The notes under the pieces were generated by a model. That model did no database searches and had not been told where the DNA came from. It saw only the letters and a program-made list of their open reading frames with translations. A DNA stretch of 64,000 nt from Marinoscillum furvescens DSM 4134. Lineage in GTDB: Bacteria > Bacteroidota > Bacteroidia > Cytophagales > Cyclobacteriaceae. The position numbers and the translations under genes were made by a program. Of this stretch, positions 3,050 through 38,805 are shown one piece after another. How positions within the stretch are numbered: position 1 is the first letter of the stretch; each line of letters begins with the position of its first letter. Location of the stretch: assembly GCF_003386095.1 (NCBI RefSeq), contig NZ_QREG01000011.1:1-64000 (forward strand). Direction: 5' to 3'.

Positions 3050-3944
3050 GCTTCAATATTACCTCATCACCAGCAATTTCGTAAGCATATCCTACAGGAA
3101 TCATGACTGCATCCAAGGCAACATTGAGGTTATTATTCGGAAAAGATCCAGTAAACATTTCATTACTATCAACAGGTGATATTGTAATTCCATATTGGGT
3201 TTCAAGCGCCTTTACTACTACTTTAAATGGCACCCGCTCAAACTGCGAAAGTCCTTCCGCTATCCAGGCCGGGCGATTCATCGCAGAAATATTCCTTAGC
3301 TCCAAAGGCGCCAGGTCAAGGCTGCGAGCCAGCTGATTAGGTTTCAGTATTATTTTATTTTCAATGTTGGCAACCCGTACGCTTCCTTCATAGCAGGCCA
3401 CTTCATAGTACTCATTATATGACCGCACGTTAAATTGCGTGCCCAGCACTTCTACTGTGCCAGGCTCGCTTGTCACTGTAAATCTCTCACCCTTGCGCAC
3501 TTCAAAAAAAGCTTCGCCTGTAAGCGCTACTTCACGGTTTTCATTCCATTGCTCCTTGTTGTATGTCAACCTGGCGCCAGCATTGAGCCATACCTTACTC
3601 GAGTCAGGGAGGTAATGCAGTTCTGTGTTTTGGGCTTCAGCCATCACCGTGGTAGCCTGTGGGGCCTGGAAGAAATACAGCACTACAGCCGCTGTGATCA
3701 GCACAAAAACTGCGGCTGCCTTCCAAACATGGCGATACATGGAAACCACAGGTGTAGAATCTTCAGCCAACGCACGCTCCAGCTCTTGCTCCACGTCATA
3801 GGCAGGCGCTTTGAAAGCCTGTATGGCACGATCCAGGCGTTCAAGCTTTTGGAGTTCGCCGGAAGCCTGGAGCTGCGAACGCTCCTCATCAGTGAGCGTG
3901 CCCTGGAGCCACTTTTCTATCAATATGTTGTTTGATTCTTTCAT
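3042..3944 (-). CDS. FecR-family anti-sigma factor
   Basis: A 300-residue single-pass inner membrane regulator. The cytoplasmic N-terminal segment (1-73) should bind the ECF sigma factor. One membrane helix lies at about 74-92 (WKAAAVFVLITAAVVLYFF). The periplasmic FecR domain (about 105-200) shows LPDSSKVWLNAGARLTY, GEAFFEV and VLGTQFNVRSY, and a C-terminal DUF4974-like STN-related domain follows (about 230-300, ending VILKRE). In the family it relays occupancy of the TonB receptor to the sigma factor. It lies between the sigma gene and the receptor gene in the standard Bacteroidota order. Confidence 0.93.
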   Translation of the reverse strand: MKESNNILIEKWLQGTLTDEERSQLQASGELQKLERLDRAIQAFKAPAYDVEQELERALAEDSTPVVSMYRHVWKAAAVFVLITAAVVLYFFQAPQATTVMAEAQNTELHYLPDSSKVWLNAGARLTYNKEQWNENREVALTGEAFFEVRKGERFTVTSEPGTVEVLGTQFNVRSYNEYYEVACYEGSVRVANIENKIILKPNQLARSLDLAPLELRNISAMNRPAWIAEGLSQFERVPFKVVVKALETQYGITISPVDSNEMFTGSFPNNNLNVALDAVMIPVGYAYEIAGDEVILKRE

Positions 3945-4000
3945 GCCTTATTAATACAACAGGTCAATTATCGGTTTTCCTACCGGCCGTAGCATAAATC

Positions 4001-4504
4001 TCACAGCCCTTCCACTTTTTCACGCAGGATGGCCAGCGCTTTATAGATCCGTTTTTCTACAGCTTTGCGCGAAATGCCCAACATATCGGCGATCTCCTGA
4101 TGCTTTTTGCCTTCCACACGATTGAGCATAAAGGTCACGCGTTGCTCTTCTGTAAGGCTGTCAAGTGCTTCTTGCAGCTGATCCATGTATTCTGCCTCTT
4201 CCATCACATACTCAGGCGACTCGTTGGTATTTCCCGAATGTGGAAGTTGCTCATAGCTCCAGGCTGTTTTTTGACGTGAAATTACATTTAACGTAAGATT
4301 GTTGGCTACCGTAAACAAAAATCCTCTGGCTTTCTCAGGAAGTACTTTTTTGCAGTTGTCCCACAGCTTGCTGAAAGCATCCTGTACCAGGTCTCGTGGG
4401 TTATACTGAGCACCGTATTTATAATACAAAAATTTGTAGAGCTCTTCCGAGTAGTTTTTGAAAAGCTCGCTAAATACTTTTTCGCTACATACATCTTTCT
4501 CCAT
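4001..4504 (-). CDS. ECF RNA polymerase sigma factor (sigma-70 family)
   Basis: 167 residues with region 2 (about 10-78, including NPRDLVQDAFSKLWDN and ARGFLFTVANNLTLN) and region 4 (about 118-167, EQRVTFMLNRVEGKKHQEIADMLGISRKAVEKR in segments), the helix-turn-helix that reads the -35 element. It is the first gene of the sigma/FecR/TonB receptor cassette, 56 bases ahead of fecR. It presumably drives this cassette when the receptor binds its ligand; other targets are unknown. Confidence 0.93.
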   Translation of the reverse strand: MEKDVCSEKVFSELFKNYSEELYKFLYYKYGAQYNPRDLVQDAFSKLWDNCKKVLPEKARGFLFTVANNLTLNVISRQKTAWSYEQLPHSGNTNESPEYVMEEAEYMDQLQEALDSLTEEQRVTFMLNRVEGKKHQEIADMLGISRKAVEKRIYKALAILREKVEGL

Positions 4505-4614
4505 AGCTTGTCAGATTGGAACGTAAGATTAAGTCAAAATGGGCATAGAAACCAACAGCATAAAATAAATAGCATGGCTGGTAGGAGAAATCCAACTTAT
4601 TCTGTTTTTAATTT

Positions 4615-5673
4615 GTGAGAATAGGAATCAAATTATCGATCATCATCAAATTCGGTACCATCATAGCGATATTGCTGGTCCTGGCCGCAGGCTGTCAGGA
4701 GGCCTATGTAGACACGCTGCCTGCTGATCAGCGGGACGCACTGGATGCCAATCACTCCGCAGTAGATCTTGCTACACGCATGGTGATGCTCGATGGCTCT
4801 GCAGACAATGCGCTCGACGGGATGAGTTGTGCTGCTGTGGTTTATCCTATTACCGTAGAGCGAAGTGATCAGCTGGAGACTTTAACTGGTCCAGAGGATT
4901 TAGCTCAACTGTTGCTAGACAGCATCGAGTTTGAGTTGGAGTTTCCAGTTACCCTGCAGCTGGCAGACTACAGCATGATAACACTTACAGATGATGACCA
5001 ACTGGAAGATCTGCAGGAAAACTGTGTGGAGGGTGGTGGTGACCCAGATATAGAGTGTATAGATTTTGACTATCCCGTGCAGCTGTTGGCTTTTGATACT
5101 ATCACGGAAGTGAGTAATTCGGTAGTGCTCACCAATGATGAGCAGGCGTACGCTTTTTTTACTTCCATGGAGAGCAACGTCATAAGTTTTGATTGGCCTA
5201 TTGGGCTCATAACGCGTTCAGGTGAACAACTGACTGTACAAGCTCACAGCGAGCTTCAGGCCGACCTGGAGCACTATGCCTCTAGCTGTGATGAAGGGGA
5301 TGTGGTGCCCGAACTTGACTTTGAAGATGAGGAGCGGGTAGAGGACCATGAGTTGTTTCAGTACCTGACGGGTGCCGTATGGGACGTAGCTGAACTGAGC
5401 GTAGAGGGAGAGCTCCAAACTCAATATTTTGAAAGCCTTGAATTCACCTTTAATCAGGATTTTACCATCGATGCTACTTACCAGGAGGAAAACTTAGTAG
5501 GGGAATGGGAGCTGGAAATAGAGCAGGAGCTTATTCTGGCCATCGATCTGGATACGGAGTTTGAAAATCAGGAGCTGATCAATGATGAGTGGCACGTAGT
5601 GAGCTACACTGCCGATAGCCTAATCGCCAACTCTGAATCTGGAGACAAAACCCTGCGACTAACGACCAGGTAA
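4615..5673 (+). CDS. acidic lipoprotein of unknown function
   Basis: 352 residues from a GTG start. The N-terminus is a hydrophobic helix followed by the lipobox LAAGC (Cys27), so it should be a lipoprotein. The mature part is strongly acidic (many E/D, e.g. DFEDEERVEDHE and ELEIEQELILAIDLDTEFE). It carries a Cys-containing segment CVEGGGDPDIECIDFDYPVQL and a C-terminal lipocalin-like beta stretch (LTGAVWDVAELSVEGE to LTTR) reminiscent of domains that measure loss of fit. It is divergent from the sigma operon and convergent with the next gene, with a 1-base gap. I do not recognise the family; calcium binding through the acidic patches is only a guess. Confidence 0.8.
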   Translation: MRIGIKLSIIIKFGTIIAILLVLAAGCQEAYVDTLPADQRDALDANHSAVDLATRMVMLDGSADNALDGMSCAAVVYPITVERSDQLETLTGPEDLAQLLLDSIEFELEFPVTLQLADYSMITLTDDDQLEDLQENCVEGGGDPDIECIDFDYPVQLLAFDTITEVSNSVVLTNDEQAYAFFTSMESNVISFDWPIGLITRSGEQLTVQAHSELQADLEHYASSCDEGDVVPELDFEDEERVEDHELFQYLTGAVWDVAELSVEGELQTQYFESLEFTFNQDFTIDATYQEENLVGEWELEIEQELILAIDLDTEFENQELINDEWHVVSYTADSLIANSESGDKTLRLTTR

Positions 5674-13704: not shown

Positions 13705-13741
13705 ATGTTTTCAACTCATTTTTGAGTATTTAGGAAACAAC

Positions 13742-13766
13742 AAAGGCACCCAAAAGGGTGCCTTTT
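13742..13766. terminator. intrinsic bidirectional terminator
   Basis: A 10-bp perfect stem (AAAGGCACCC / GGGTGCCTTT) with an AAAA loop and T-rich tail, A-rich on the other side. It ends the 10.4-13.7 kb operon and can also serve the small minus-strand gene that ends at 13818. Confidence 0.88.
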
Positions 13767-13817
13767 CTATATCAGGCCGTACGCCTGGAATGCTAATGTT
13801 TATATGTAAAAGATGTC

Positions 13818-14000
13818 CTAGGACTCTGCACGCTGCTGAGAGCGGAGCGTTACCAGCTCGGTATGGATCCGATCGATCCGGTAAGCAATGTTCTCAACTT
13901 CTTCATGCTTGCGTTCGCGATGCTTTTCGAGCATTTCTGACTGTAAGCGACTCAGCTCAGACTGGAGCTGGCTCATTGTTCTGAAGGGCGTGTAATACAT
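13818..14000 (-). CDS. small coiled-coil protein of unknown function
   Basis: 60 residues, MYYTPFRTMSQLQSELSRLQ..., almost entirely an amphipathic, highly charged helix with heptad-like spacing of Leu/Ile (SQLQSELSRLQSEMLEKH; VENIAYRIDRIHTELVTL). It may start at the internal Met at residue 9. It is convergent with the preceding operon and shares its terminator. The composition looks protein-like, not like a shadow frame, but no family is recognised. Confidence 0.5.
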   Translation of the reverse strand: MYYTPFRTMSQLQSELSRLQSEMLEKHRERKHEEVENIAYRIDRIHTELVTLRSQQRAES

Positions 14001-14300
14001 GGTGGCAAGTGGTTTAAGTGTTACATAGTAAGCTGTGATTAAATGCAGGTTGGGAGAGACTGTCCTTCTTGCATAATATTATAATTCTATGGTACCTGTT
14101 TTTGTTTAAAATACCTACTGTAAGATGGTAATGTAACTGAAAAGTAACACCGTCAGTTCGGTGAATGATGAGATTTACACGATGACCATTTTTCACCAAA
14201 TTCCCTTAAAAATCACGTCAAAATTCACGCAATACTTGACCTGTTTTTAGCTAATTGGCAGTGAATCAGAAGTATGTGAGACTTGTGAGTGAAAACTTTA
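14001..14300. other. non-coding stretch, nothing recognised
   Basis: An AT-rich gene-free stretch ahead of the repeat field. It presumably holds the promoter of the small minus-strand gene ending at 13818. I see no conserved site. Confidence 0.5.
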
Positions 14301-27959: not shown

Positions 27960-28014
27960 ATGGTAATTGACAGTAGGCAACGAGCAGTAGACCAAAACTT
28001 ACAGACCTACCTCA

Positions 28015-28622
28015 ATCGATACATTGCCTATTGAATTTTGCCTATTGCCTATTGTATTCTGCCTATTGCAAATTGAATCCATTGCCTATTGAAACTTGTC
28101 TATTGTCTTTGGTCTATTGTCTTTGGTCTTATGTCTTATGTCTTTTGTCTACTGAGCATTGCCTATTGACTATTGGGAAACTACCAGAAATTACATCCTG
28201 TTGGTCACAAGACCAACAGGGACGGAAAATTTGCCTTTTGTCCTTTGCGGTTGTCTACAGTCTAGTGTCTAAATTCTTGCCTACTGCCTATTGAATTCTA
28301 CCTACTCGCTATTGATTCTGGAAGATTTTGTCTTAAACTTCGACAAGCTCAGCTTGACAAAATCAATTGATATTATTCCTTCTAGTGTCTTCTGTCTCAT
28401 GTCTTTTGTCTACTGAGCATTACCTGTTGATTTGACAAAAGTGTCTTATCCTTCGACCGTGCCTACGGCAGGCAGGCAAGCTCAGGATGACCCTTTTGGT
28501 CTATTCTTTGCCTATTGTTTTTTGCCTATTGTCTATTGTCTCATGTCTTTTGTCTACAGAGCATTGCCTATTGTTTTTTGCTTACTGCCAATTGAATTCT
28601 ACCTATTGAGTTTTGTCTTCTT
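28015..28622. repeat. interspersed CTATTG repeat array with hairpins (locus 2)
   Basis: Pyrimidine-rich units such as TTGCCTATTGAATTTTGCC, TTGTCTATTGTCTTTGGTC and the longer unit TCTTTTGTCTACTGAGCATT (about 28143, 28400, 28548) fill the stretch. Embedded hairpins are CCTGTTGGTC-ACAA-GACCAACAGG at 28197-28220, CTTCGACAAGCTCAGCTTGAC near 28338 and TATCCTTCGACCGTGCC... near 28448. The array runs into the 3' end of the LodB-type gene and encodes its last codons. Forward frames here are repeat translations, not genes. Confidence 0.88.
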
Positions 28623-29656
28623 CTTTCCCAAAATCCTCCGCGGCTTTCAGGCATCACACCATAATACCGGGCACTTTGCTGCTCATACGCCTCAAACATG
28701 GTCCGGGCTATAGCCTGATACTTCCGCATCGCCATGGGCTTCTTGTTTCGATAGTCCTTGAGTGCGTAGCTACACCATAGCGCCGTTTCAAAGGCCTTGT
28801 AGATGCCCTGCCCAGAAAGCGGGTCAAACTTCATCAGCGCATCGCCTACCGCTAGCCAGCCCTCACCGTATGCAGCACTTTGGTGCACGCGGACGGTAAA
28901 CCATTGTCCCTCCTGATGATGCGGCACCGTAGCAAATGCCGACCGAAAGGCTTCATCATCCGGAAGCTCATGGTGCAGATCGCCTGCAGTTTTAAATGCA
29001 TGCGTTTTTACGTGTTCGGGATCCGTCACTAGCGTAAATACCGACCGATCGGCCAGGTTGCAGTGGTACCACCAGCCATTTTGAGCGGCAGCTATCGTAG
29101 TATAGGTCTCCTCCCCGATCTTTTCACCAAAAAAATAGGTGGCCACCAGCTGGTCCTTTACCTCACAGCTTTTGCGATGGTCCGCCAGGATCGCAGCGCT
29201 TCCTGTAGCATTGATGAGAAAGTCCGCCTTGATAGCCAGCGACTGCCCTGTGACTATCCAGTGATCACCTTTTTGCACGGCATGTGCCTTGCCAAAACCA
29301 CGCACTACCCGGATACCACGCGCCTGGCAGTGCTCCTCCAGCCATTCGTCAAACAATGGTCTGTTTAGGTGCCATCCTGTACCTTCCGTCTGCAGGAGCG
29401 CAGGCACATCGGTATTACCCTCCCAAAGTATGCGTCGGCCATATGCTGGCCAGTGGTCTTGGGCAAGAAAGGAATCCTTTAAGTGCAGTGCCTCAAAAAG
29501 ACGCAAAATTCGGCCAGGCACCGTTTCGCCCGGTCTAAAGCCCCGCTGCTGCGTTCGCTCTACCACGGTGATGGAGAGGTCTGGCAGCTGCTTTCGAATG
29601 GCTAGCGCGGTGGCCAGCCCCGCCGGACCAGCCCCTACGATGAGTACCGTTTTCAT
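28568..29656 (-). CDS. lodB: LodB-type FAD-dependent monooxygenase (CTQ maturase)
   Basis: About 362 residues from Met 29656 (MKTVLIVGAGPAGLATALA), which overlaps the upstream stop as ATGA. FAD-binding GxGxxG at the N-terminus, GFRPGETVPGRILRLFEAL, the second FAD motif GEGWLAVGDALMKFDPLSGQGIYKAFETAL near 265-295. It belongs to the PHBH-like/tryptophan-halogenase-like group; next to a LodA homologue it is the LodB maturase, which in Marinomonas is needed to build the cysteine tryptophylquinone cofactor. The last roughly 17 residues (NSIGRIQLAVSKKQ) are encoded by the CAATAG repeat, so the natural C-terminus appears to have been replaced or extended by repeat DNA. Confidence 0.85.
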   Translation of the reverse strand: MKTVLIVGAGPAGLATALAIRKQLPDLSITVVERTQQRGFRPGETVPGRILRLFEALHLKDSFLAQDHWPAYGRRILWEGNTDVPALLQTEGTGWHLNRPLFDEWLEEHCQARGIRVVRGFGKAHAVQKGDHWIVTGQSLAIKADFLINATGSAAILADHRKSCEVKDQLVATYFFGEKIGEETYTTIAAAQNGWWYHCNLADRSVFTLVTDPEHVKTHAFKTAGDLHHELPDDEAFRSAFATVPHHQEGQWFTVRVHQSAAYGEGWLAVGDALMKFDPLSGQGIYKAFETALWCSYALKDYRNKKPMAMRKYQAIARTMFEAYEQQSARYYGVMPESRGGFWERRRQNSIGRIQLAVSKKQ

Positions 29657-30069
29657 TCTTCTTGCTTTACCGCATACCACGAGGCTACTACACCTGCCGG
29701 ATGGATGGTTTGCCCACTACCTCCGGAGTGTGGAATCACCCGCACTATAGACCCCACGATAGTTGGCGGCTGATTGTTGCCATCTACCCACGGCTGCACC
29801 ATGTACCCTACATAGTTGTAGATCCACTCTTCGCCTCCTACTACGCCTTTGCCCTGAAAGCGCAGCTCAAACGGGCTGCCGTAGTTTACCGAGCCTTTGA
29901 GGTCCAGCGACCAACCAGGGCCATAAATCAGGCCTTTGAATTCATTGACTGGGGATTCGTCGATGCGAATGGTTCCCTTACCAAACTGTAGGTCGTTAAA
30001 GGCTACCGACAGGTCGGGATTGTTGAGAAGGCTCCGGTATGACCAGTTGCCTAGTAATAGCTCATTCAT
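29653..30069 (-). CDS. small conserved protein of the LodA cluster
   Basis: 138 residues: MNELLLGNWSYRSLLNNPDL, FNDLQFGKGTIRIDES, FELRFQGKGVVGGEEWIYNYVGYM, then IVGSIVRVIPHSGG and AGVVASWYAVKQ. Predicted all-beta, no signal peptide. It sits between and overlaps both the LodA-type and the LodB-type genes by 4 bases, so a role in oxidase maturation or as a small subunit is likely, but this is inference. I know no characterised relative. Confidence 0.75.
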   Translation of the reverse strand: MNELLLGNWSYRSLLNNPDLSVAFNDLQFGKGTIRIDESPVNEFKGLIYGPGWSLDLKGSVNYGSPFELRFQGKGVVGGEEWIYNYVGYMVQPWVDGNNQPPTIVGSIVRVIPHSGGSGQTIHPAGVVASWYAVKQEE

Positions 30070-32204
30070 TTTTTTACTTTTTTAGTGTTAGAAACGGGAC
30101 CAGCGTACTGGTCGGAAATGGTGTCATCAAAATTTCGCTCCTGCTCCAGGTAGCTAGCCCCCTGCTGGAGCACAAAGCCCAACTCACTCCAGTAGGAAAC
30201 CATTTTTAAGTCACCCTCATAAGTTTGAGGTATGCCTCTCGCCCAGTTTACCTGGTTCACCACCGGGTTGGAGCCATTCATTAGCGGATTGCCGTTTTGG
30301 TCTTTCACTACTTTAAAGACCTGCATGGGCCGGTGCGAAGGCCACCACAATACCGTAAAGGTTTCCTGGTACTTTTGCAGAAAAGGGTCTTTAGGATCAT
30401 CAGGGTTGATTTTATTCCACTCCTGAAAGGTCACATTGACATCCTGCGAGCTACACTCATTGAAGTCAGCCTGCCAGGGCAAGGCACTCATTCGTGTGAT
30501 GTCTCCCGGCTGCAACCCCTCGGCATAGTCCGCTCCCAGGCTTAGGCTGTCGGGGTGGTAATACGCCTCCACTCCTGGCGTGGTGCCCGCGGTGCTATTG
30601 TCCATACCGGGGATAAAACGAGGATCGGCCTTGATCCGGAACGGCTTACTGTAAATGGCGGGATTGCGCATGATCCACGACACTTCACCTCCCGGACAAA
30701 AAGCCCCACCAATGATATTGCTGATCACACCCCCATCCAGCTGCTCGCTTTCAGGTTTGGGCTCCGGCGTGATGTGCTCCAGCTTTTCATTGATAAACTT
30801 ACCCTCGGCCCACTGTTTGAGGATAAAGAGTTGCGTTTCGGTAAGCACCAAAAACTTGGAAGGTATGGTGTTGGATATGGGATTGTCCCCTGCCAGCAGT
30901 GGCATGAGTAAGTAGTTGTAGTTTTGGCTTTTGGGGTTTTTCGTATTGCGAAAAATGTTGCGCTCCTCTCGCTGCCGCAGCATGTTGTAGATGCGCTTGC
31001 GGTACATATCATTGCGTTTACGAAGCTCAGGGTCCGCTTCAGTTTTGGGAGGCACACTCAGGATACTTTCGTCAAAAGTGCCCCTCGGCCCGGCGTAGTG
31101 TGGTAAGTTAGAGGCCATCACTATGTTGCTCACCCATTGCATCTGATTGGGGCGCTGCAAGATGGGCCACACATCCCGGTAGAAATATGGGTAATAGTCA
31201 TCGTTCCACTGCTTCCGAGGGTTGATGCGCCAGTCTTCCAGGTTTTTGGCCGTATCCACGGTTTTCGAGCCATCGAAGGGCGCCTCGCCGTACAGGTACT
31301 GGTTGGTACCAAAGTGCTGGATGTTTACGTCAGTGAGCAGGTCTTCCAGTGTGATCATATCCGCAATCTGAGGCACATAGCGAGGATAGCCCACCACTAC
31401 CCAGCTGGGGTCTTCCACCGCTGCATACCGATATTGGTTGTCGCGCTCGTCAGCAAAGATTAGCTTCGCATACACAGGACCATCGCTGGTGTCATCAAAC
31501 CACCCGTCATTATTGGCATAGGCTTCTATTTTGGGTTCTCCCGGGCCAGAGAGGTAGCTGCCCGAGTGGCCATTGCCGCCGATTACGATGAGCTCATTTT
31601 GATCATTGGTCATGATCTTGCCCAGCGTATCGATGCTCTGAGGCTGTAATGGTGGCGGAAAAGTCTGCGCGTAGTTTGGGTTTTTTCCTTTGGCAAATTC
31701 CGCTTCACGCTTTTGGGTGCAGTTGATGGACTGTGGCCCCGGATCGATGATCAGTAATTTGGTGCGCTCATCCGGGTCGGTAATGTGGGCATTGCGCAGC
31801 GGATGGTCTGGTTGGTAGCCGTGCTCGCCCTCCAGCTGATCAAACTGATACCAGGAGGCTTTCTTGTTGGCCAGCCATACCGTCCATTCTATATCCACGA
31901 GTTTGCCTTTGCTGCCTACCCCTATCACTTCATCTCCGGGTTGGATAGGGCGGCCTTTTGGATTTTGCTCATCATACACGTAGATGGTAAATCGGGCGGC
32001 CTGTTTTTTGATGCGCTGCTGCGCGTCCTTAAAAGCAGTAACTCGCTCATAACTTTTGTCTTTGCCCTTTCGAAGCGGAGTGCCATTGGCTGTGCAGGCT
32101 ATGGGTAGTTCAGCGAGCGCTTCTGGTGATAAATAAAATTCGTCAGGGCTATTGCCTACCCGGGCTATGCCTATGGCAGGATGTATTTTATATGTAGTGT
32201 TCAT
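30066..32204 (-). CDS. lodA: LodA/GoxA-type CTQ-dependent oxidase
   Basis: 712 residues, close to LodA (726). N-terminus IHPAIGIARVGNSPDEFYLS is the family hallmark. NDGWFDDTSDGPVYAKLI (232-249) and GGAFCPGGEVSWIMRNP (499-515) with Cys503, and MSALPWQADFNEC (572-584) with Trp577, correspond to the Cys and Trp that form the cysteine tryptophylquinone cofactor. Relatives oxidise the epsilon-amino group of lysine (LodA) or glycine (GoxA), giving H2O2 and ammonia. There is no signal peptide, as in LodA, which leaves the cell by an unknown route. The amine substrate here is not readable. It overlaps the DJ-1/PfpI gene upstream and the 138-residue gene downstream. Confidence 0.88.
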   Translation of the reverse strand: MNTTYKIHPAIGIARVGNSPDEFYLSPEALAELPIACTANGTPLRKGKDKSYERVTAFKDAQQRIKKQAARFTIYVYDEQNPKGRPIQPGDEVIGVGSKGKLVDIEWTVWLANKKASWYQFDQLEGEHGYQPDHPLRNAHITDPDERTKLLIIDPGPQSINCTQKREAEFAKGKNPNYAQTFPPPLQPQSIDTLGKIMTNDQNELIVIGGNGHSGSYLSGPGEPKIEAYANNDGWFDDTSDGPVYAKLIFADERDNQYRYAAVEDPSWVVVGYPRYVPQIADMITLEDLLTDVNIQHFGTNQYLYGEAPFDGSKTVDTAKNLEDWRINPRKQWNDDYYPYFYRDVWPILQRPNQMQWVSNIVMASNLPHYAGPRGTFDESILSVPPKTEADPELRKRNDMYRKRIYNMLRQREERNIFRNTKNPKSQNYNYLLMPLLAGDNPISNTIPSKFLVLTETQLFILKQWAEGKFINEKLEHITPEPKPESEQLDGGVISNIIGGAFCPGGEVSWIMRNPAIYSKPFRIKADPRFIPGMDNSTAGTTPGVEAYYHPDSLSLGADYAEGLQPGDITRMSALPWQADFNECSSQDVNVTFQEWNKINPDDPKDPFLQKYQETFTVLWWPSHRPMQVFKVVKDQNGNPLMNGSNPVVNQVNWARGIPQTYEGDLKMVSYWSELGFVLQQGASYLEQERNFDDTISDQYAGPVSNTKKVKK

Positions 32205-33031
32205 GATGGGATTTCGTGGTGTTTTAGGTAATAAAGAAATACATCTCCCGCGGCGGAAAACCCGGGAGTATAAGGCGTCTCGTGACGACTTACTTCATAG
32301 ATAATTTCTGGTTTGGCATGTGCCGGATCACCCCCTTTCACAGGCGGATCTGGGTGGTACTGCATCATCAGCTGCACCTTCTCGGCGGTCTGCTGGTCAA
32401 ACAGGGCGGTGACGATCGCCAGTGCTTCGTCTATAGTAGACGAGATACCGCCACCGGTAAAGATGTTCTGATCCACGACGTAGCGCGGATAGCCGGCCGC
32501 CAGGGTCACCTGTGGAAACTGGGCCAGTAGTGTGGCAGTCATCCAGTGAGTAGTGGCTTTTCGGCCGGCCAGTAGACCTGCCGTACCGAGCAGTAGTGCC
32601 CCCGTGCATACCGAAGCAATAATTTCCGCTTCCTGGCGGGCCTTTTCCAAAACCTTGAAAAATGGATTATCAGCCATCTTTTGACTATAATACAGCGGAC
32701 AGCTCGTATCCATAGCGCCGGGCACATAGATCAGGTCCAGTTGGTAGCGGCCTTTCTTATCATTTAAGTAATCCTGATAGGTGATGTCCTGAGCTATTTT
32801 CACCTGCTCTCCACTTACCACCTCCCCCTTTTTGGCAGCCGCCAGATAGGGTTTCAGTTTGTCGTGTTGGAGGTCTTTAGGGTCTGGGCCCAAAAGCAAT
32901 ACTTCTGAGTCGGAATGGTACCGGCATGCGTAGTGAAACACCTGATGTGCTCCAATAACATCGAGTGAATCAAACGTCGGGTAAAGCACGATACCTATAC
33001 GCTTTCCTTTCTTTTGTGTCTTTTTTGCCAT
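32201..33031 (-). CDS. DJ-1/PfpI-family protein, isonitrile-hydratase-like
   Basis: 276 residues. RIGIVLYPTFDSLDVIGAHQVF at the N-terminus, the nucleophile-elbow SVCTGALLLGTAGLLAGRKATTHW (about 141-164) with the reactive Cys, and GYPRYVVDQNIFTGGGISSTID. This is the InhA/AraC-N-like branch of DJ-1/PfpI enzymes, which includes isonitrile hydratase; a basic N-terminal tail (MAKKTQKKGKR) precedes it. In this operon it may detoxify a reactive product (aldehyde, quinone or isonitrile) of the oxidases; that is inference. It lies 11 bases after the tyrosinase gene. Confidence 0.85.
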   Translation of the reverse strand: MAKKTQKKGKRIGIVLYPTFDSLDVIGAHQVFHYACRYHSDSEVLLLGPDPKDLQHDKLKPYLAAAKKGEVVSGEQVKIAQDITYQDYLNDKKGRYQLDLIYVPGAMDTSCPLYYSQKMADNPFFKVLEKARQEAEIIASVCTGALLLGTAGLLAGRKATTHWMTATLLAQFPQVTLAAGYPRYVVDQNIFTGGGISSTIDEALAIVTALFDQQTAEKVQLMMQYHPDPPVKGGDPAHAKPEIIYEVSRHETPYTPGFSAAGDVFLYYLKHHEIPS

Positions 33032-33042
33032 GAGGAACGGAT

Positions 33043-35052
33043 TTAGTCGATAAAATCAAGAGAAAGTGCTTCCATACGGAGCAGGTCGGTGAGCGCTTCA
33101 CCATCCGTGTCTTGCACCAGTAGGTTCACATGAAAGTCTTTTTCACCTTGCTCTATAAGTTTGGAGACACACTGCGTGGCATCCAGCCGGTAATTCCACG
33201 GTGTGTTGTGATGACGCTCACGTACATCACCTACCCTGCGGCGGCCCGGAGGGTCGCAATGCCCGCTACTGCCTATACACTGCCCATGCCCGAATAAAAC
33301 GAAGCTGCCCACATAGTGATCCGGGTGCTTGTCACGGTCTCCAGGCTCTGGACTGTCCAGGTTCAAAAAGACTTTTACAAACAATGATTGGTTAGGCTGT
33401 GTAACATTGATGAGCTTTACCTCGGCCTTTTCGTGATGCTCCAGTGCAGTATGAGAGACATTCACTTTGTCAGTCTTTAACTTCCTGATGCCTAGCTCCT
33501 TATTACCCTGCATGTAATGACCAGAGCGAACATATTCGTAGCCAAACCGATGGATGTTGTAGGTCTCTCCCACCAAATAGTTGAAAGGTACCAACACGCT
33601 GTTTCCACCGTCTGGAGTAAGCCCGGGATGCTTCACCTGCCACTTGTACCACATTCGGTCCACATTGGCATGGTGCGCGTAGAAGATCGGGTCAAAACCA
33701 GCCGTCAGGTTATTGAGCATATCTCCGTATTTAGGCTCCAGAGGGTCATTGGGGTCGTAGTTGGGGTTGTATCCTCCTGACCAGATATGGATGGTATTGT
33801 GCGGATCCATGTCCAGCACACCAAAGGATTCATTGTACGCATCACCACCACCAAATTGCTGAAAAGACCTGGTGGCGAGTATCTGCTCGATATCTGTTCT
33901 GGTAGGATAATGGTGATGAAAGTCCCGAAGTGTGCGAAGTGGCGTAGGGTAACGCTTTGGGTCATAGTTAGTTTTCATCGGGTACCGGTAGGGATACCAG
34001 AGCGGGTTGATGTCCTCCAGGAGGTCGTAAAACTGCTGCTTCCATGGTTTGATTACCGCGTAGTAGTCGAGCTTTTTAGATGGATAAAAAGCCGCATAAC
34101 AGAGGTCATCCAGTGTCTGGAAGGGTTTGTCTGTGTGCTTGCGTAGCACGTCTGCCAAGTCGGAGGGAAAATCACGCGCCTCCAGCTTGCTGATAGCCTC
34201 TTCTGTAATCCATAGCTGATATGCCTCGGGGATGAAGTAGTCGCCCGTATCGGGATCCAGATAGTGTTTATTGGACCACTGCCAGTAGTGCAGCGCCACG
34301 CTTTCGTCTTCGTCCATGAGTAGCTGCTCCATCTCATACATCTGGCACCTATGCCAGGGCAGAAACTTCTCCCAGCCATGCTGGCAAGAATTGCCATGCA
34401 CCCGGCCCCAGTATGCAAACGATCTGCGGTCCTGCTCTGGTCTTGATTTTACAATCCTGAGTGCATCACGGTAGCAGTTTAGCTCTGATTCACTGAGCTC
34501 TTCCACGTTTTTTCGCTGCGCCAGGTGTCCGTTAGAGCGTCGCTTCTGGTTCGTAGTGGCAGTGCATACGCCAAACGTGGCTTTGCCAGTAGCTAGCTGC
34601 TGGCGCTCTACCTGGTCGAGCGAATCGGTAGTGTCTTCCTGTGGGCAGCCATCTGCGATCCAGTCGGCGATGAGCTGTATGTCTGGTGCCGACACCTCTC
34701 GCTCCGCAGACCATAGCAGTTTGGGAAACTGAGTGCCATCAAAAGGAAATTTACCTTTGAGTCCTCGTATCAGTCCTGAAGCTTCCGGATCTCCGGTAGT
34801 AGTAGCGGCTGTTGTGGACTTTGCTACCGGCTGAGCACTGCTGTGGCAGCAGCTGTGAGACGGTGGCTGCTCATTTGGGTTTTCACCCAATACAAACATG
34901 GGTATACCATAGAGTTTCATGGAGATAAACTCCTCATAAGGACGGTCCCAAAAGCGGTGATAGCCGTCATAGTCTGGGCAGTCTTTGCCCTGAGCTTTTT
35001 CCAGTATGAGCCTTACCTGCTCATACCTGCTCCGTTGTTTTTTCTTAGCCAT
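33043..35052 (-). CDS. tyrosinase (type 3 copper) with N-terminal and C-terminal extensions
   Basis: 669 residues from Met 35052 (MAKKKQRSRYEQVR). The longer frame from 35145 overlaps the previous gene and is not preferred. The copper centre is complete: CuA His219, His225, His234 (VHGNSCQHGWEKFLPWHR) and CuB His418, His422 and His460 or 461 (MDPHNTIHIW; FDPIFYAHHANVDRMW). The first roughly 185 residues are an extra module with SCCHSS, GKFPFDGTQFPKLLW and APDIQLIADWIADGCP. The C-terminal roughly 150 residues (from VSHTALEHHEKAEVKL) resemble the beta domain that caps plant polyphenol oxidases. There is no signal peptide. It should hydroxylate and oxidise phenols to quinones. Confidence 0.9.
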   Translation of the reverse strand: MAKKKQRSRYEQVRLILEKAQGKDCPDYDGYHRFWDRPYEEFISMKLYGIPMFVLGENPNEQPPSHSCCHSSAQPVAKSTTAATTTGDPEASGLIRGLKGKFPFDGTQFPKLLWSAEREVSAPDIQLIADWIADGCPQEDTTDSLDQVERQQLATGKATFGVCTATTNQKRRSNGHLAQRKNVEELSESELNCYRDALRIVKSRPEQDRRSFAYWGRVHGNSCQHGWEKFLPWHRCQMYEMEQLLMDEDESVALHYWQWSNKHYLDPDTGDYFIPEAYQLWITEEAISKLEARDFPSDLADVLRKHTDKPFQTLDDLCYAAFYPSKKLDYYAVIKPWKQQFYDLLEDINPLWYPYRYPMKTNYDPKRYPTPLRTLRDFHHHYPTRTDIEQILATRSFQQFGGGDAYNESFGVLDMDPHNTIHIWSGGYNPNYDPNDPLEPKYGDMLNNLTAGFDPIFYAHHANVDRMWYKWQVKHPGLTPDGGNSVLVPFNYLVGETYNIHRFGYEYVRSGHYMQGNKELGIRKLKTDKVNVSHTALEHHEKAEVKLINVTQPNQSLFVKVFLNLDSPEPGDRDKHPDHYVGSFVLFGHGQCIGSSGHCDPPGRRRVGDVRERHHNTPWNYRLDATQCVSKLIEQGEKDFHVNLLVQDTDGEALTDLLRMEALSLDFID

Positions 35053-35065
35053 TAAAGGATTGGTT

Positions 35066-35479
35066 TTAGTTCCTGAAGAGCGACTTACAATGGGGTTGTG
35101 CTTTGCGAGGTATTCGCCACATAGAACCGGCCACCAGCTGACCACCAGACAGCAGGCTTATGCCTACATAATAGCCCGTGGCACTAAAGGTGTTGCCACT
35201 AAAACTCAGCAGTATAACTCCCGTGCCGAGCACACATAGTGCTATAGCCATGAGGTGAATTTTGCCTGCACAGTCACGCCGCAGTTGCCATAGAGGCAAC
35301 AGGCATAGCGCCAGTATTAGGGCATATTCCCATGTGGGAGTAGTAGCACGGTCCAGGCCACACACAGATATGGCCGAACCAATAGCGAATACACACAAAG
35401 AGCATTTAGGAAGGAGTACCAGTGCCAATACACTCACTACGGACCGGTACCCCTGTCCTAACCTAAACAATAGTCGCAA
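35066..35479 (-). CDS. four-helix membrane protein with CxxC motif (MauE/MerC-like)
   Basis: 137 residues with four predicted membrane helices. A PKCSLC motif follows the first hydrophobic stretch (VLALVLLPKCSLCVFAIGSA), and two further Cys occur (VCGLDR, RRDCAGK). It resembles small MauE/MerC/DoxX-like proteins. Between a tyrosinase and a CxxCH lipoprotein it may handle copper or thiol redox; the sequence alone cannot decide. Gaps of 5 and 13 bases to its neighbours place it in the operon. Confidence 0.7.
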   Translation of the reverse strand: MRLLFRLGQGYRSVVSVLALVLLPKCSLCVFAIGSAISVCGLDRATTPTWEYALILALCLLPLWQLRRDCAGKIHLMAIALCVLGTGVILLSFSGNTFSATGYYVGISLLSGGQLVAGSMWRIPRKAQPHCKSLFRN

Positions 35480-35484
35480 AACAA

Positions 35485-37005
35485 TTAGTTACGCTTGCTG
35501 TATGCTTTGATCATCTGTATAAGCTGTGTAGGTTCATACCCTACGCTATCCAGCGCCACATCAAATGCCAGGTAAGGATCTGGTCGGTCTACGGGCTTTC
35601 CGGCTCCAAAGTCCAGCAGGAAGCTAAAATCCGAACCTTTCAATTGGGCCTGGCCATGACACCCCTGGCATCCGCCCATATTATAGGTAGCGCCATTGTA
35701 GACTACATTTTGGATGGACTCGTCGAAAGGTATTCCAAATGAGCCGTGAAAAAAGGTGAGCGTACTATCCGATTCGATCACATAATTGGCCATGAAATAA
35801 TTGGGATCTGTCGCCCGATCCTCATAGTTAATCGGTTTGCCCTGCACACCAATGAGTTGGTAATATTGCCACACAGAAGCTGCGTTTTGACTGGTGATCA
35901 GCGCTTTGGCCGCAGCATTTACTGTTTGAATTTCGGAAGGGATCTCCCGGTCTATTACCGGCTCTGGGCGGTGCGGATCCACATTGGGGTCGTTGATCGT
36001 ATCTCCATTAATGATCTTTTGAGGCACATCTTGCCCGATGGTTTGCATTTGCGCCTGACGCACATCTACCTGCTCCCACGAAGCAAAGACAAAGGCCGGG
36101 TAGTTTTTCGTTTTGTGAATGATGTGTAGCCCTATGAGGCCAAACTCATCTGTCTGGGCTGTAGCCTCACCGTCTTTATCCATATAGGTGTAGTACACTG
36201 CCTTGCGAGTAAAGAAGCGAGTGGGATCATCTGCCGCGGTGAGTTTCCTCCAGGCGGTTTTGATTTCTATGGCACCTTCTTGCCCTCCGTATTCGCCACA
36301 TGGCAGGCACACCACATTACTGGCTGTATCGCTATTGCAAGATTGTCCCTGAGAGACTTTTTTCAGGTATTCCAGGTCCTGACCATTATTTACTGCTTTA
36401 AAAAGCAATGCATCATCTGGAAACTTATCACGCACGTAGTTGTACTCTGTCAGGTTAGACTTGGCCATGTAGAGCACTTGGTTTTCGCTGTAGGCATACA
36501 GATAGCACGAACCAATCTCATTGTCTTCATCCAGGTTTACCCAGTAGTCTGAGAGTTCGATTCCATTGGTATTGATAGGATCTATAAAGGTGTAGTCCGG
36601 TTTTCCTGTATTGAGGTTGACCTTATAGCGGTTACTGTCTGCAGGTCGGAGCTCCGTGCGGTGGATGTACGTTTCCCAAACGGCCAGATCGGGGGCCGCT
36701 CCACTTGTAGCAAAATCCCAACTGGTATCTGGCAATCCTCGTGAGCGACTGCTGGCAGGTGAACTTGCCTGCGCAGCCCATTCTGCTCGCCAATTCAGGG
36801 CAAAAAACTCGTTCCACGCAAAGGTGGCCAACTCTTCAATAGTAGCATCAGGTGATGCAAGGTCTCCAGGCACCTTGTAGCTGATCGATAGCTCAGAAGG
36901 TGAGGCAGTTTCCAACTCCTCTTGAGGAGCTTGTTTGGTAGTGGTCTTACAGGCTGCTAGCATACATATGCCCACACCCCAGTAGGTGATGAGTGATTTT
37001 CTCAT
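35485..37005 (-). CDS. CxxCH lipoprotein, putative haem c electron carrier of the oxidase operon
   Basis: 506 residues with lipobox MLAACK (Cys19). An N-terminal Pro/Glu linker leads to a large domain: LATFAWNEFFALNWRAEW, PVIDREIPSEIQTVNAAAKALI. Near the C-terminus GGCQGCHGQAQLKGSDFSFLL has the haem c motif C446-Q-G-C449-H450, followed by a short helical end. Other cysteines form CNSDTASNVVCLPCGEYGG. It is probably anchored to the outer or inner membrane facing the periplasm. As first gene of the seven-gene operon it could accept electrons from the quinone enzyme; covalent haem attachment is inferred only from CxxCH. Confidence 0.8.
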   Translation of the reverse strand: MRKSLITYWGVGICMLAACKTTTKQAPQEELETASPSELSISYKVPGDLASPDATIEELATFAWNEFFALNWRAEWAAQASSPASSRSRGLPDTSWDFATSGAAPDLAVWETYIHRTELRPADSNRYKVNLNTGKPDYTFIDPINTNGIELSDYWVNLDEDNEIGSCYLYAYSENQVLYMAKSNLTEYNYVRDKFPDDALLFKAVNNGQDLEYLKKVSQGQSCNSDTASNVVCLPCGEYGGQEGAIEIKTAWRKLTAADDPTRFFTRKAVYYTYMDKDGEATAQTDEFGLIGLHIIHKTKNYPAFVFASWEQVDVRQAQMQTIGQDVPQKIINGDTINDPNVDPHRPEPVIDREIPSEIQTVNAAAKALITSQNAASVWQYYQLIGVQGKPINYEDRATDPNYFMANYVIESDSTLTFFHGSFGIPFDESIQNVVYNGATYNMGGCQGCHGQAQLKGSDFSFLLDFGAGKPVDRPDPYLAFDVALDSVGYEPTQLIQMIKAYSKRN

Positions 37006-37067: not shown

Positions 37068-37085
37068 ATACCCCAATTGGGGTAT
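37068..37085. promoter_or_regulatory. 18-bp perfect palindrome, candidate operator of the LodA/tyrosinase operon
   Basis: ATACCCCAATTGGGGTAT lies 63-80 bases ahead of the first start codon of the operon (37005). It is non-repetitive in the window. On the coding strand TACCTTTC (37046-37039) resembles the Bacteroidota -7 box TAnnTTTG and lies between the palindrome and the gene, so the palindrome would be near or just upstream of the -33 region. Probably the binding site of a dimeric regulator, which is not encoded next to it. Confidence 0.6.
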
Positions 37086-37195: not shown

Positions 37196-37495
37196 CAAGC
37201 ATGTTGGTCCCAAGACCAACATGGAAGCCTAATGTATTTATTGCCCTTTTATGCTCGATGGATTTGCTACTGCCTACTCAAAAGAGATGTGTGATCATTT
37301 TGTCTAAAACTTTGATCGTGCCTATGTACACTCCGGTAGGCCTGTCACGCCGGAGGCGGACTCGTCTATCGGCGTGGCAGGCAAGCACGATGACCCTTTT
37401 AATCTCATCTTTGCCTATTGCTCTTTGATTAATGTCTTCTACAGTCTATTAAGCATTTCCTATTGGAGTTTGCCTAATGAGGCTGTCTATTGATA
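37196..37495. repeat. CTATTG repeat array and hairpins (locus 3)
   Basis: The hairpin CATGTTGGTC-CCAA-GACCAACATG (37200-37223) is a near copy of the one at 28197. A GC-rich module at about 37315-37395 contains CACTCCGGTAGGCCTG, CACGCCGGAGGCGG and TCGGCGTGGCAGGC, then TTGCCTATTGCTC, CAGTCTATTAAGCATTTCC and GGCTGTCTATTG. The array ends at the stop codon of the DUF3024 gene. The open frame at 37201-37428 is a repeat translation. From 37006 to 37195 only the operon promoter region is seen. Confidence 0.85.
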
Positions 37496-37499
37496 GCTC

Positions 37500-37847
37500 C
37501 TAACCCCAGAAGCAATAATGACTATCCTCTTCTACAAGCTTTATAAAATCTTTAATTGATTTTACAGTGGGTTTTGCTTGGTAGCTACTCCATTTGAGAT
37601 TGCCTCGCATCCAAAAGACTTTCCATTCGTTGCGGGTATGCACCCAGGTAGCCTTCGCTATTGGTGGTTCAATGGTTCGATCTGGGTCTTCAAAAGCAGG
37701 CCTCACCTCATGTATGATGATGCTTTGATTGTCGATTTTGTAAGCTATATCCAGCTGATCCCGTATGTGCTCAGCTGGCCGTTTGCGGTCCAAAAAGTTT
37801 TCTAACTCATTGATCGTATCTGCTGCCTGGATTACATCTAAAGCCAT
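37500..37847 (-). CDS. DUF3024 protein
   Basis: 115 residues. EVRPAFEDPDRTIEPPIAKATWV, then RNEWKVFWMRGNLKWSSY and a C-terminal VEEDSHYCFWG, matching the DUF3024 consensus (W-x-V-Y-W-x-R-A-x-L-K-W; ending CFFG). Function unknown; members are small cytoplasmic proteins common in Bacteroidota. The repeat array starts at its stop codon. Confidence 0.85.
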   Translation of the reverse strand: MALDVIQAADTINELENFLDRKRPAEHIRDQLDIAYKIDNQSIIIHEVRPAFEDPDRTIEPPIAKATWVHTRNEWKVFWMRGNLKWSSYQAKPTVKSIKDFIKLVEEDSHYCFWG

Positions 37848-37974
37848 GGAATAGTGTATTTTTAGAAATGATGAGCTTGATGAACTTGTTTAGTTTTTCG
37901 TTAAAACTACAGAGAATTTAATGGAGTTCAATAACCCTTGGTTAGCAAGTATGTCACGCTGCAAGTGCACCCGC

Positions 37975-38255
37975 TATTGCTCGTTGCCTACTGCCTATTG
38001 AATTCTGATTTCTCGCTTTGATTCTGGAAGATTTCATCTTAAACTTCGATCGTGCGTGCGTTCACTCCGGCAGGCGGGCAGGCTCCATGCCTACGTAAAC
38101 TCCGGCAGACGGGCACGATGACCCTTTTGATGTATCTTTTGTCTATTTTCTATTTTCTTCTGTCTCATGTCTTTTGTCTACTTAGCATTGCCTATTGTAC
38201 ATTGTTTATTGCCTATTGAATTCTGCCCATTTTCTATCGTCTTCTGTCTGCAACT
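37975..38255. repeat. CTATTG repeat array and GC-rich hairpin module (locus 4)
   Basis: TTGCCTACTGCCTATTGAAT followed by TTCTGGAAGATTTCATCTTA matches locus 2 (28272-28340) over about 80 bases. The GC-rich module at 38045-38120 reads GATCGTGCGTGCGTTCACTC, CGGCAGGCGGGCAGGC and CTACGTAAACTCCGGCAGAC. Then TTTTGTCTACTTAGCATTGC and TTGTACATTGTTTATTGCC follow. The array crosses the stop codon of the small lipoprotein gene. The stretch 37848-37974 upstream of DUF3024 shows nothing else. Confidence 0.85.
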
Positions 38256-38485
38256 GAATCTTTGGACTTAAGTCTTAATGCATTCTGAAATTCGGCCAAT
38301 GACTTCCATTCCTGAATTTGTTTCTTGGCCTTGTCAAGTTCGATTGTAAGGCTATCGATTGTCACTTGTGCATTGGTGAGCTCTTGCTCTAATTTCTTCG
38401 TTTTTGGACTTTCGCATGCCGTGAGGGTGAGTAAGATCGCCAGCGATGTGACTCCCAATTGAATTCGTTGACTCATAATTGACAA
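38234..38485 (-). CDS. small coiled-coil lipoprotein
   Basis: 83 residues. Signal peptide and lipobox TLTAC (Cys24), followed by a single amphipathic helix (KKLEQELTNAQVTIDSLTIELDKAKKQI), Lpp-like in plan. The last residues (DSVADRRR) and stop come from the repeat array. Function unknown; possibly an envelope spacer. The first Met could be at residue 1 or 4. Confidence 0.7.
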   Translation of the reverse strand: MSIMSQRIQLGVTSLAILLTLTACESPKTKKLEQELTNAQVTIDSLTIELDKAKKQIQEWKSLAEFQNALRLKSKDSVADRRR

Positions 38486-38635
38486 TAGATTAATTTCATC
38501 AGATTCAAATACAATGGCTAGTACAGTTTAAATATTCAATCGACCAGGTGGCAGATCGTATAAAAATACAGGAATGACGCCAAATTAATCGCATACGGGT
38601 CGTGCACTTCCCACCCTCCCTATTCGCCAAGACCC

Positions 38636-38805
38636 ATCACAAAAGTGTCTTATCCTTCGACGGGCTCCATGCCTACGTAAACTCCGGCAGGCCCACCTAT
38701 CGGCGTGGCAGGCGGGCACGATGACTGCTTCCCCATTTGCCTATTGCCTATTCATACTTGTCTATTGTCTTATGTCTTAAGTCTTAAGTCTCATGTCTGT
38801 TGCAT
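38636..38805. repeat. repeat cluster (locus 5) in a gene-free stretch
   Basis: AAAAGTGTCTTATCCTTCGAC, a GC-rich module with CTACGTAAACTCCGGCAGGC and CCTATCGGCGTGGCAGGCGG, then GCCTATTGCCTATTC and TGTCTTATGTCTTAAGTCTT. The preceding 38486-38635 shows no gene and presumably holds the lipoprotein promoter. Confidence 0.82.

Follow-up and report, generated by a model that had tools for sequence, protein, structure and literature searches.

Operons in which a gene for a LodA-type oxidase is accompanied by genes for a tyrosinase, a multicopper oxidase (MCO), and a small protein were published in 2015 by Campillo-Brocal et al. as group ID, from a set of 11 organisms that includes one Bacteroidete (PMC4417212). 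The same three enzyme types occur in Marinomonas mediterranea as LodA/LodB, the tyrosinase PpoB1, and the laccase PpoA, and PpoS is reported to regulate LodA, tyrosinase, and laccase there (PMC2855505). The M. mediterranea genes are, however, not in one operon, and their LodA is of group IA, in which LodA and AlpP are antimicrobial (PMC4417212). Here, we analyze a locus at 28568 to 37005 on the minus strand of a 64,000-nucleotide stretch of Marinoscillum furvescens DSM 4134 (NZ_QREG01000011.1, positions 1 to 64,000; the window). In order of transcription, its seven tightly packed genes encode a CxxCH lipoprotein, a CxxC membrane protein, a tyrosinase, a DJ-1/PfpI-family protein, a LodA-type oxidase of the cysteine tryptophylquinone (CTQ) kind, a small protein, and a LodB-type flavoprotein.

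Among lodA operons, the locus belongs with group ID, as a variant from Bacteroidota. Both contain a tyrosinase gene and the order lodA, small gene, lodB, with a small gene of 138 to 142 codons in the described operons and 138 here, and the window LodA falls in one clade with Bradyrhizobium homologues in a tree built without the sequences of the 2015 paper. The window differs in having no MCO, in place of which the CxxCH lipoprotein and the CxxC membrane protein are found, and in the DJ-1 gene between tyrosinase and lodA. An earlier note, made from the sequence alone, had pointed to a pathway that it did not know as a described system; the operon core was already known, and what is new here is the identity of the small protein and an apparent exchange between MCO and heme lipoprotein. 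Later papers on group ID activity or on the function of the small gene were not found in the open-licence literature. The reading that we favor, at slightly less than an even chance, is that a split PvdP-type tyrosinase, LodA/LodB amine oxidation, and a third redox protein act in one oxidative pathway.

The small protein, not recognized in the earlier note, is the most informative part of the operon. Its relatives include the small genes found in lodA operons of rhizobia, and its AlphaFold2 model is an eight-strand barrel with a mean predicted local distance difference test (pLDDT) score of 92.1. The barrel fold alone says little, because designed barrels, avidins, and quinohemoprotein amine dehydrogenase (QHNDH) score alike: the best Foldseek rows are rhizavidin and other avidins (best E 3.5e-3), and VIA-align gives Z scores of 11.6 to 13.8 to designed barrels, to avidins, and to the alpha subunit of QHNDH. 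QHNDH is a CTQ enzyme, and its alpha subunit includes a similarly folded barrel (1jmx_A; Z 13.5, root mean square deviation 2.6, 103 residues); its subunit make-up differs. The likeness is one of fold without a sequence match, and QHNDH was rejected as a relative, a profile search of PDB sequences not finding it; looking for PF14930 in 59 relatives gave no hit, but the control stayed silent too, so that this search shows nothing about QHNDH. An early idea of a dirigent- or allene-oxide-cyclase-like barrel was dropped when neither appeared in the best 50 rows of Foldseek or VIA-align, a result that excludes nothing. In Rhizobium etli p42d (L030, 9995 to 12713), the barrel gene and a gene of the avidin/streptavidin family are about 2 kb apart, rhizavidin being the best Foldseek match of the barrel.

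Additional insight comes from a plasmid of Mesorhizobium onobrychidis (L116, 7998 to 12655), on which a 513-residue fused protein starts with a barrel related to the small protein and is encoded next to a GoxA-like oxidase and a LodB-like flavoprotein on the other strand. The window small protein reaches L116 by tblastn (E 3e-8), a small-protein profile built without L116 scores 58.9 bits on its residues 2 to 152, and the reverse search with L116 as query found small genes in all five genomes tried, each chosen for having one. For the barrel model, seven loci were left out as broken, short, or duplicates of the window, removal of near-identical rows reduced 82 to 43, and six more were dropped. 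The fused protein in turn aligns with PvdP in one continuous stretch (L116 3 to 482 on 6eys 49 to 505; E 3.2e-90) and matches the NCBIfam PvdP model NF051454 over residues 2 to 482 (1.7e-113; 380 bits, below the cut-off of 625). Both the PvdP alignment and the model match span the barrel, and L116 shares with PvdP the motif G-x-W-x-x-R where the barrel begins and F-x-AVK where it ends.

On these alignments, the small protein is firmly related to the barrel at the N terminus of L116, the PvdP-like fused tyrosinase, and it is likely, from alignment position, architecture, and fold, to be related to the barrel of PvdP itself. As PvdP, the tyrosinase of pyoverdine maturation (6eys, 6rrp), partners an N-terminal barrel with a type-3 copper domain, the window tyrosinase and barrel look like a split PvdP-type enzyme. 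This gives the small protein a testable role as partner of the neighboring tyrosinase. Unlike PvdP, which is fused, the window has barrel and tyrosinase as separate genes, its tyrosinase falls under Pfam Tyrosinase and carries a CxH motif, and its small protein has no direct match to PvdP. PvdP is absent from the best 50 rows each of Foldseek and VIA-align for the small protein, the PvdP model is not among the matches of either the window tyrosinase or the small protein, and hhalign links the C-terminal domain of L116 to window-type tyrosinases only weakly (probability 9.6). A general arrangement of GoxA with a fused PvdP-like enzyme was rejected, L116 being a single case; in the order of genome G487, one of 397 genomes matches the PvdP-like domain, and weakly.

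The association of the barrel with copper oxidases is also seen in its genomic context. Five Burkholderia loci (L032, L050, L075, L076, and L098) have tyrosinase next to the small gene without LodA, and LodA is likewise missing from the arrangements MCO, small gene, tyrosinase in Sinorhizobium medicae (L114), small gene, MCO, tyrosinase in Rhizobium leguminosarum (L115), MCO, small gene in R. etli (L030), and DJ-1, small gene, membrane protein, tyrosinase, lipoprotein in genome G379 (L026). As the barrel gene adjoins tyrosinase, MCO, or both without LodA, it appears tied to copper oxidases more than to LodA.

A wider view of the operon was obtained by scanning genome contigs with the small-protein alignment, which gave 160 relatives. 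The best 80 were retained for neighborhoods and, with nine further loci and the window, make up the 90 loci examined, using profiles from the window proteins and one rhizobial MCO. Among the best 80 of 160, several of which are short contigs, LodA is present in 75 (in L077 as a 70-residue piece), LodB in 73, tyrosinase in 74, MCO in 40, lipoprotein in 21, membrane protein in 13, and DJ-1 in 20. The set recurs in Bacteroidota, Acidobacteriota, Pseudomonadota, Nitrospirota, and others, and is therefore not a product of chance; one oxidative module would link rhizobial plasmids, Nitrosomonas, methanotrophs, Acidobacteria, and marine Bacteroidota. Few Bacteroidota genomes have the small gene (4 of 395, including that of the window), and among 72,556 plasmid records it was found in 107, of which 105 are rhizobial. 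Among 57 well-flanked loci, defined by at least 6.8 kb before and at least 5 kb after the small gene, 53 hold both tyrosinase and LodA. Both are present in 73 of the 90 loci, 68 of which have the ends of the two genes at most 250 bases apart on one strand, so that the two halves behave as one unit, as the earlier note had supposed, and not as separate units that rarely co-occur. Over 62 loci, pairwise distances of tyrosinase and LodA correlate at r=0.978, ignoring shared descent (reached in 0 of 2,000 permutations), and those of LodB and LodA at r=0.877.

In the LodA tree (76 rows, a quick method, rows below 600 residues left out), the window joins Fluviicola L034 with support of 100, within a 72-row clade (SH-like approximate likelihood ratio test 99) that holds the lodA-small-lodB operons of Bradyrhizobium and Mesorhizobium; L028, L029, the second LodA of L055, and L116 fall outside it. 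That second copy belongs to a distant lodA-lodB pair of Lacihabitans (L055, beyond 13665), which adjoins the group ID operon on the opposite strand.

It could be argued that these patterns reflect co-inheritance only, with the barrel tied to the tyrosinase half, the lipoprotein to one half or the other, and no coupling between them. Such a view would fit the loci of several genera in which barrel and tyrosinase occur and lodA does not, as well as L029, in which a lipoprotein homologue (57.3 bits) lies directly before lodA-lodB without a tyrosinase. The joint presence of tyrosinase and lodA in 53 of 57 loci across phyla speaks against it, as does the GoxA-like oxidase beside the fused PvdP-like enzyme in L116, a second, separate pairing, if a single case, and we hold this alternative to be distinctly unlikely.

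The second new element concerns the gene that accompanies this core. In the 57 well-flanked loci, MCO occurs alone in 31 and the lipoprotein alone in 19, both together in none, and neither in 7 (Fisher p 1e-9, kinship ignored). The two swap at least five times on the LodA tree, and among five independent tree pairs, averaged over random pairings, they never change the same way, change in opposite ways in 2.9, and show no difference in 2.1. None of the seven window proteins is an MCO by Pfam, and the rhizobial MCO query finds none in the window genome, in a search without a positive control. The window lipoprotein apparently occupies the place that a laccase-like MCO takes in many related operons, and such an exchange suggests one job done with two different cofactors.

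The CxxCH motif lies near the lipoprotein C terminus in all 24 sequences, the window included, and one of the 24 has a second CxxCH in an extended N terminus. No NCBIfam family was matched. The structure model is poor (pLDDT 49.9), and with this model the top eight rows against known structures are cytochrome P460 or c'-beta (Z 5.5 to 6.0; next row, 3.9). The lipoprotein alignment comprised 20 of the 24 sequences (L026, L027, L043, and L064 left out). A profile comparison with 13 P460 sequences aligned 29 columns at the heme motif only, with a probability of 12.3 against 4.1 for control tyrosinases. A likeness to cytochrome P460 or c'-beta is therefore a hint that comes from a poor model.

When these results are placed into the context of PvdP, a mechanism can be formulated. 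The PvdP inhibitor phenylthiourea is reported to sit between barrel and tyrosinase domain, blocking the substrate pocket (PMC9569983), and PvdP is reported to form a catechol and then an o-quinone (PMC6206403). By analogy, the window barrel would dock on the tyrosinase, contributing to the pocket for its substrate, and the two together would hydroxylate and oxidize a phenolic compound to an o-quinone. LodA, activated by LodB, would convert a primary amine by oxidation into an imine or an aldehyde and release H2O2. A third redox protein, which in many lineages is an MCO and in the window a c-type heme lipoprotein, would carry out a further one-electron oxidation or accept peroxide or electrons. 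Copper may be supplied by the CxxC membrane protein, and the DJ-1 protein may handle reactive by-products, the product being a quinone-amine adduct or melanin-like material. A more specific version, in which split PvdP-type tyrosinase and CTQ amine oxidase serve an undescribed pathway in which an o-quinone is joined to an oxidized amine and the heme lipoprotein is a peroxidase that consumes LodA-made H2O2 where the O2-using MCO is missing, seems to us unlikely.

Several observations weigh against a single pathway built on a split PvdP-type enzyme. The connection to PvdP runs through one protein, L116, whose barrel segment alone matches no PDB chain and not the PvdP model, and small-protein profiles searched against PDB sequences do not reach PvdP, even with the L116 barrel among nine rows; both results weaken the PvdP link. 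One locus, L027, has tyrosinase, LodA, lipoprotein, LodB, and membrane protein without the small gene. No lysine oxidase was detected in Saccharophagus degradans of group ID, an organism without the small gene (PMC4417212). The same paper reports neither an activity for group ID proteins nor a function for the small gene (PMC4417212). The seven loci with neither MCO nor lipoprotein do not fit a simple exchange, and the tree-based case for exclusivity is underpowered, five pairs giving a p value of 0.125 at best. Shared descent may account for part of the tyrosinase-LodA distance correlation. Finally, the compartments may differ, because by eye the sampled MCOs and lipoproteins have a signal peptide, whereas LodA, tyrosinase, and barrel have none evident. 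M. mediterranea LodA is nevertheless reported to be released from the cell (PMC2855505).

A different view takes the operon as mainly an antibacterial or biofilm system in which H2O2 from LodA and quinones from the tyrosinase are released toxins, without a shared substrate or an ordered pathway. The antimicrobial action of group IA LodA/AlpP is consistent with this, as is the reported PpoS regulation of LodA, tyrosinase, and laccase in M. mediterranea (PMC2855505). Such a role would leave both the PvdP-like barrel and the exchange of MCO and heme lipoprotein unexplained, and no activity is reported for group ID; we consider it rather unlikely.

Tight co-inheritance of tyrosinase and LodA could also be expected if the copper oxidase served LodA itself, with the tyrosinase (or the MCO or heme lipoprotein) oxidizing a LodB-hydroxylated, catechol-like Trp to the quinone during CTQ maturation. 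Dihydroxyindoles are substrates of tyrosinases and laccases, and a barrel of like fold is held by the CTQ enzyme QHNDH (1jmx_A). The LodB-like QhpG is reported to dihydroxylate the QHNDH Trp (PMC7876137). The QHNDH barrel match does not discriminate, however, since designed barrels and avidins score about equally, the 19-kb stretches searched for the lodA-lodB pairs of L028 and L029, which fall outside the clade, contain no tyrosinase, and tyrosinase with barrel is also found without LodA. LodB, moreover, suffices for M. mediterranea LodA, and a maturation role for the copper oxidase is in our view improbable.

The window LodA matches both PF17990 (LodA_N; 1.9e-60) and PF18417 (LodA_C; 2e-44) above cut-off, and Cys503 and Trp577, which the earlier note had placed at the cofactor positions, do align with the CPG and PWQADF positions of the crystallized LodA (3weu/2ymw), from which their proximity is taken, and are each kept in at least 85% of 76 sequences. 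By domains and cofactor residues, it is classified as a CTQ-type amine oxidase. Neither lysine nor glycine can be assigned as its substrate, because it scores below cut-off against both the lysine 6-oxidase model NF038172 (369 bits; cut-off, 600) and the glycine oxidase GoxA model NF038173 (210 bits; cut-off, 750). LodB matches NCBIfam maturase_LodB at 3.6e-46 (158 bits; cut-off, 400) and QhpG at 3.7e-42, also below cut-off.

In the tyrosinase, both copper sites are intact, in agreement with the same note: CuA H250, H256, and H265 and CuB H449, H453, and H492 (numbering of a 700-residue form that would start at a GTG at 35145 and overlap the preceding gene) are each retained by 85% or more of the 68 sequences compared, the window included. 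In the same numbering and sequences, Cys99-Cys100 and Cys167 are conserved; the former lie in an N-terminal extension with a Cys-Cys motif, and a CxH motif is found at CuA. PDB relatives include bacterial tyrosinases and mollusc hemocyanins that share a CxHG motif. In L026, the N-terminal residues 118 to 168 recur in a separate 122-residue open reading frame (ORF) after the lipoprotein gene (13712 to 14080).

The features are collected in the table. The first four genes stand 5, 13, and 11 bases apart, and each of the remaining three overlaps its predecessor by 4 bases, so that coordinates and spacing, taken from the ORF list and the sequence, bear out the compact same-strand arrangement described before, and a single transcript is inferred from this spacing.

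Features of the M. furvescens operon and its upstream region (window coordinates)
Feature	Coordinates	Strand	Basis or remark
CxxCH heme-type lipoprotein, 506 residues	37005-35485	-	Lipobox-like LAAC by eye
Small membrane-type P-K-C-x-x-C protein, 137 residues, TTG start	35479-35066	-	Membrane nature by eye
Tyrosinase, 669 residues from ATG	35052-33043	-	Pfam Tyrosinase PF00264, 7.3e-29
DJ-1/PfpI-family protein, 276 residues	33031-32201	-	PF01965, 3.8e-12
LodA-type CTQ oxidase, 712 residues	32204-30066	-	LodA_N, LodA_C; Cys503/Trp577
Eight-strand beta-barrel protein, 138 residues	30069-29653	-	Predicted structure; relative of L116 N-terminal barrel
LodB-type flavoprotein, presumed CTQ maturase, from ATG	29656-28568	-	NCBIfam maturase_LodB, QhpG, below cut-offs
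Perfect 18-bp palindrome ATACCCCAATTGGGGTAT, possible operator	37068-37085	.	62 bases before first start codon

At E<=1, Pfam gave no family for the lipoprotein, the membrane protein, or the small protein. The membrane protein keeps its P-K-C-x-x-C motif in 16 of 16 sequences, the window included (as PKCSLC), and is a candidate metal (copper) supply protein. The DJ-1 protein scores 46.8 bits against the PF01965 cut-off of 26.6, and its Cys142 and His162 are each present in at least 80% of 23 sequences; its position between tyrosinase and lodA is peculiar to the window (1 of 90 loci). A role in antiphage defence was not indicated by PADLOC, which gave no match at E<=0.01 for six of the seven proteins, the membrane protein left out.

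Beyond the operon genes, ORF clusters within 4 kb of the loci recur, among the clusters listed, in at most 8 of 90 loci and mostly within single genera; two of those listed span phyla and were read as a LysR-type regulator (five loci) and a GMC-type oxidoreductase (four loci). Five Aquimarina loci (L049, L051, L052, L060, and L063) carry by eye, at 2300 to 5220 on the other strand, a flavin amine-oxidase-like gene of about 611 codons, and also a protein of about 335 residues that starts with GTWTN.

The pattern ATACCCCNNNNGGGGTAT of the palindrome before the operon has three exact sites in the 5.96-Mb genome and three more with one mismatch; the second exact site lies before a gene followed by an apparent sensor kinase and LuxR-type regulator (by eye), and the third lies between convergent genes. 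The palindrome resembles TACCCC...GGGGTA sites of the copper sensor CsoR. A CsoR operator was rejected, as no PF02583 protein is found in the genome (control positive in 6 of 14 genomes) and 11 other Bacteroidota loci showed no copy of the palindrome upstream of their first gene; one of these, L034, carries a different palindrome. Degenerate non-coding repeats with a 7-base period flank the operon (28000 to 28580 and 37410 to 38750), and TGCCTATTG has 17 exact copies in the window against 0.7 expected, two of them far off near 14300. Just beyond each operon end lies a hairpin TGTTGGTCnnnnGACCAACA (28199 to 28218 and 37202 to 37221), which has 11 occurrences genome-wide, including a cluster of 7 on contig C15.

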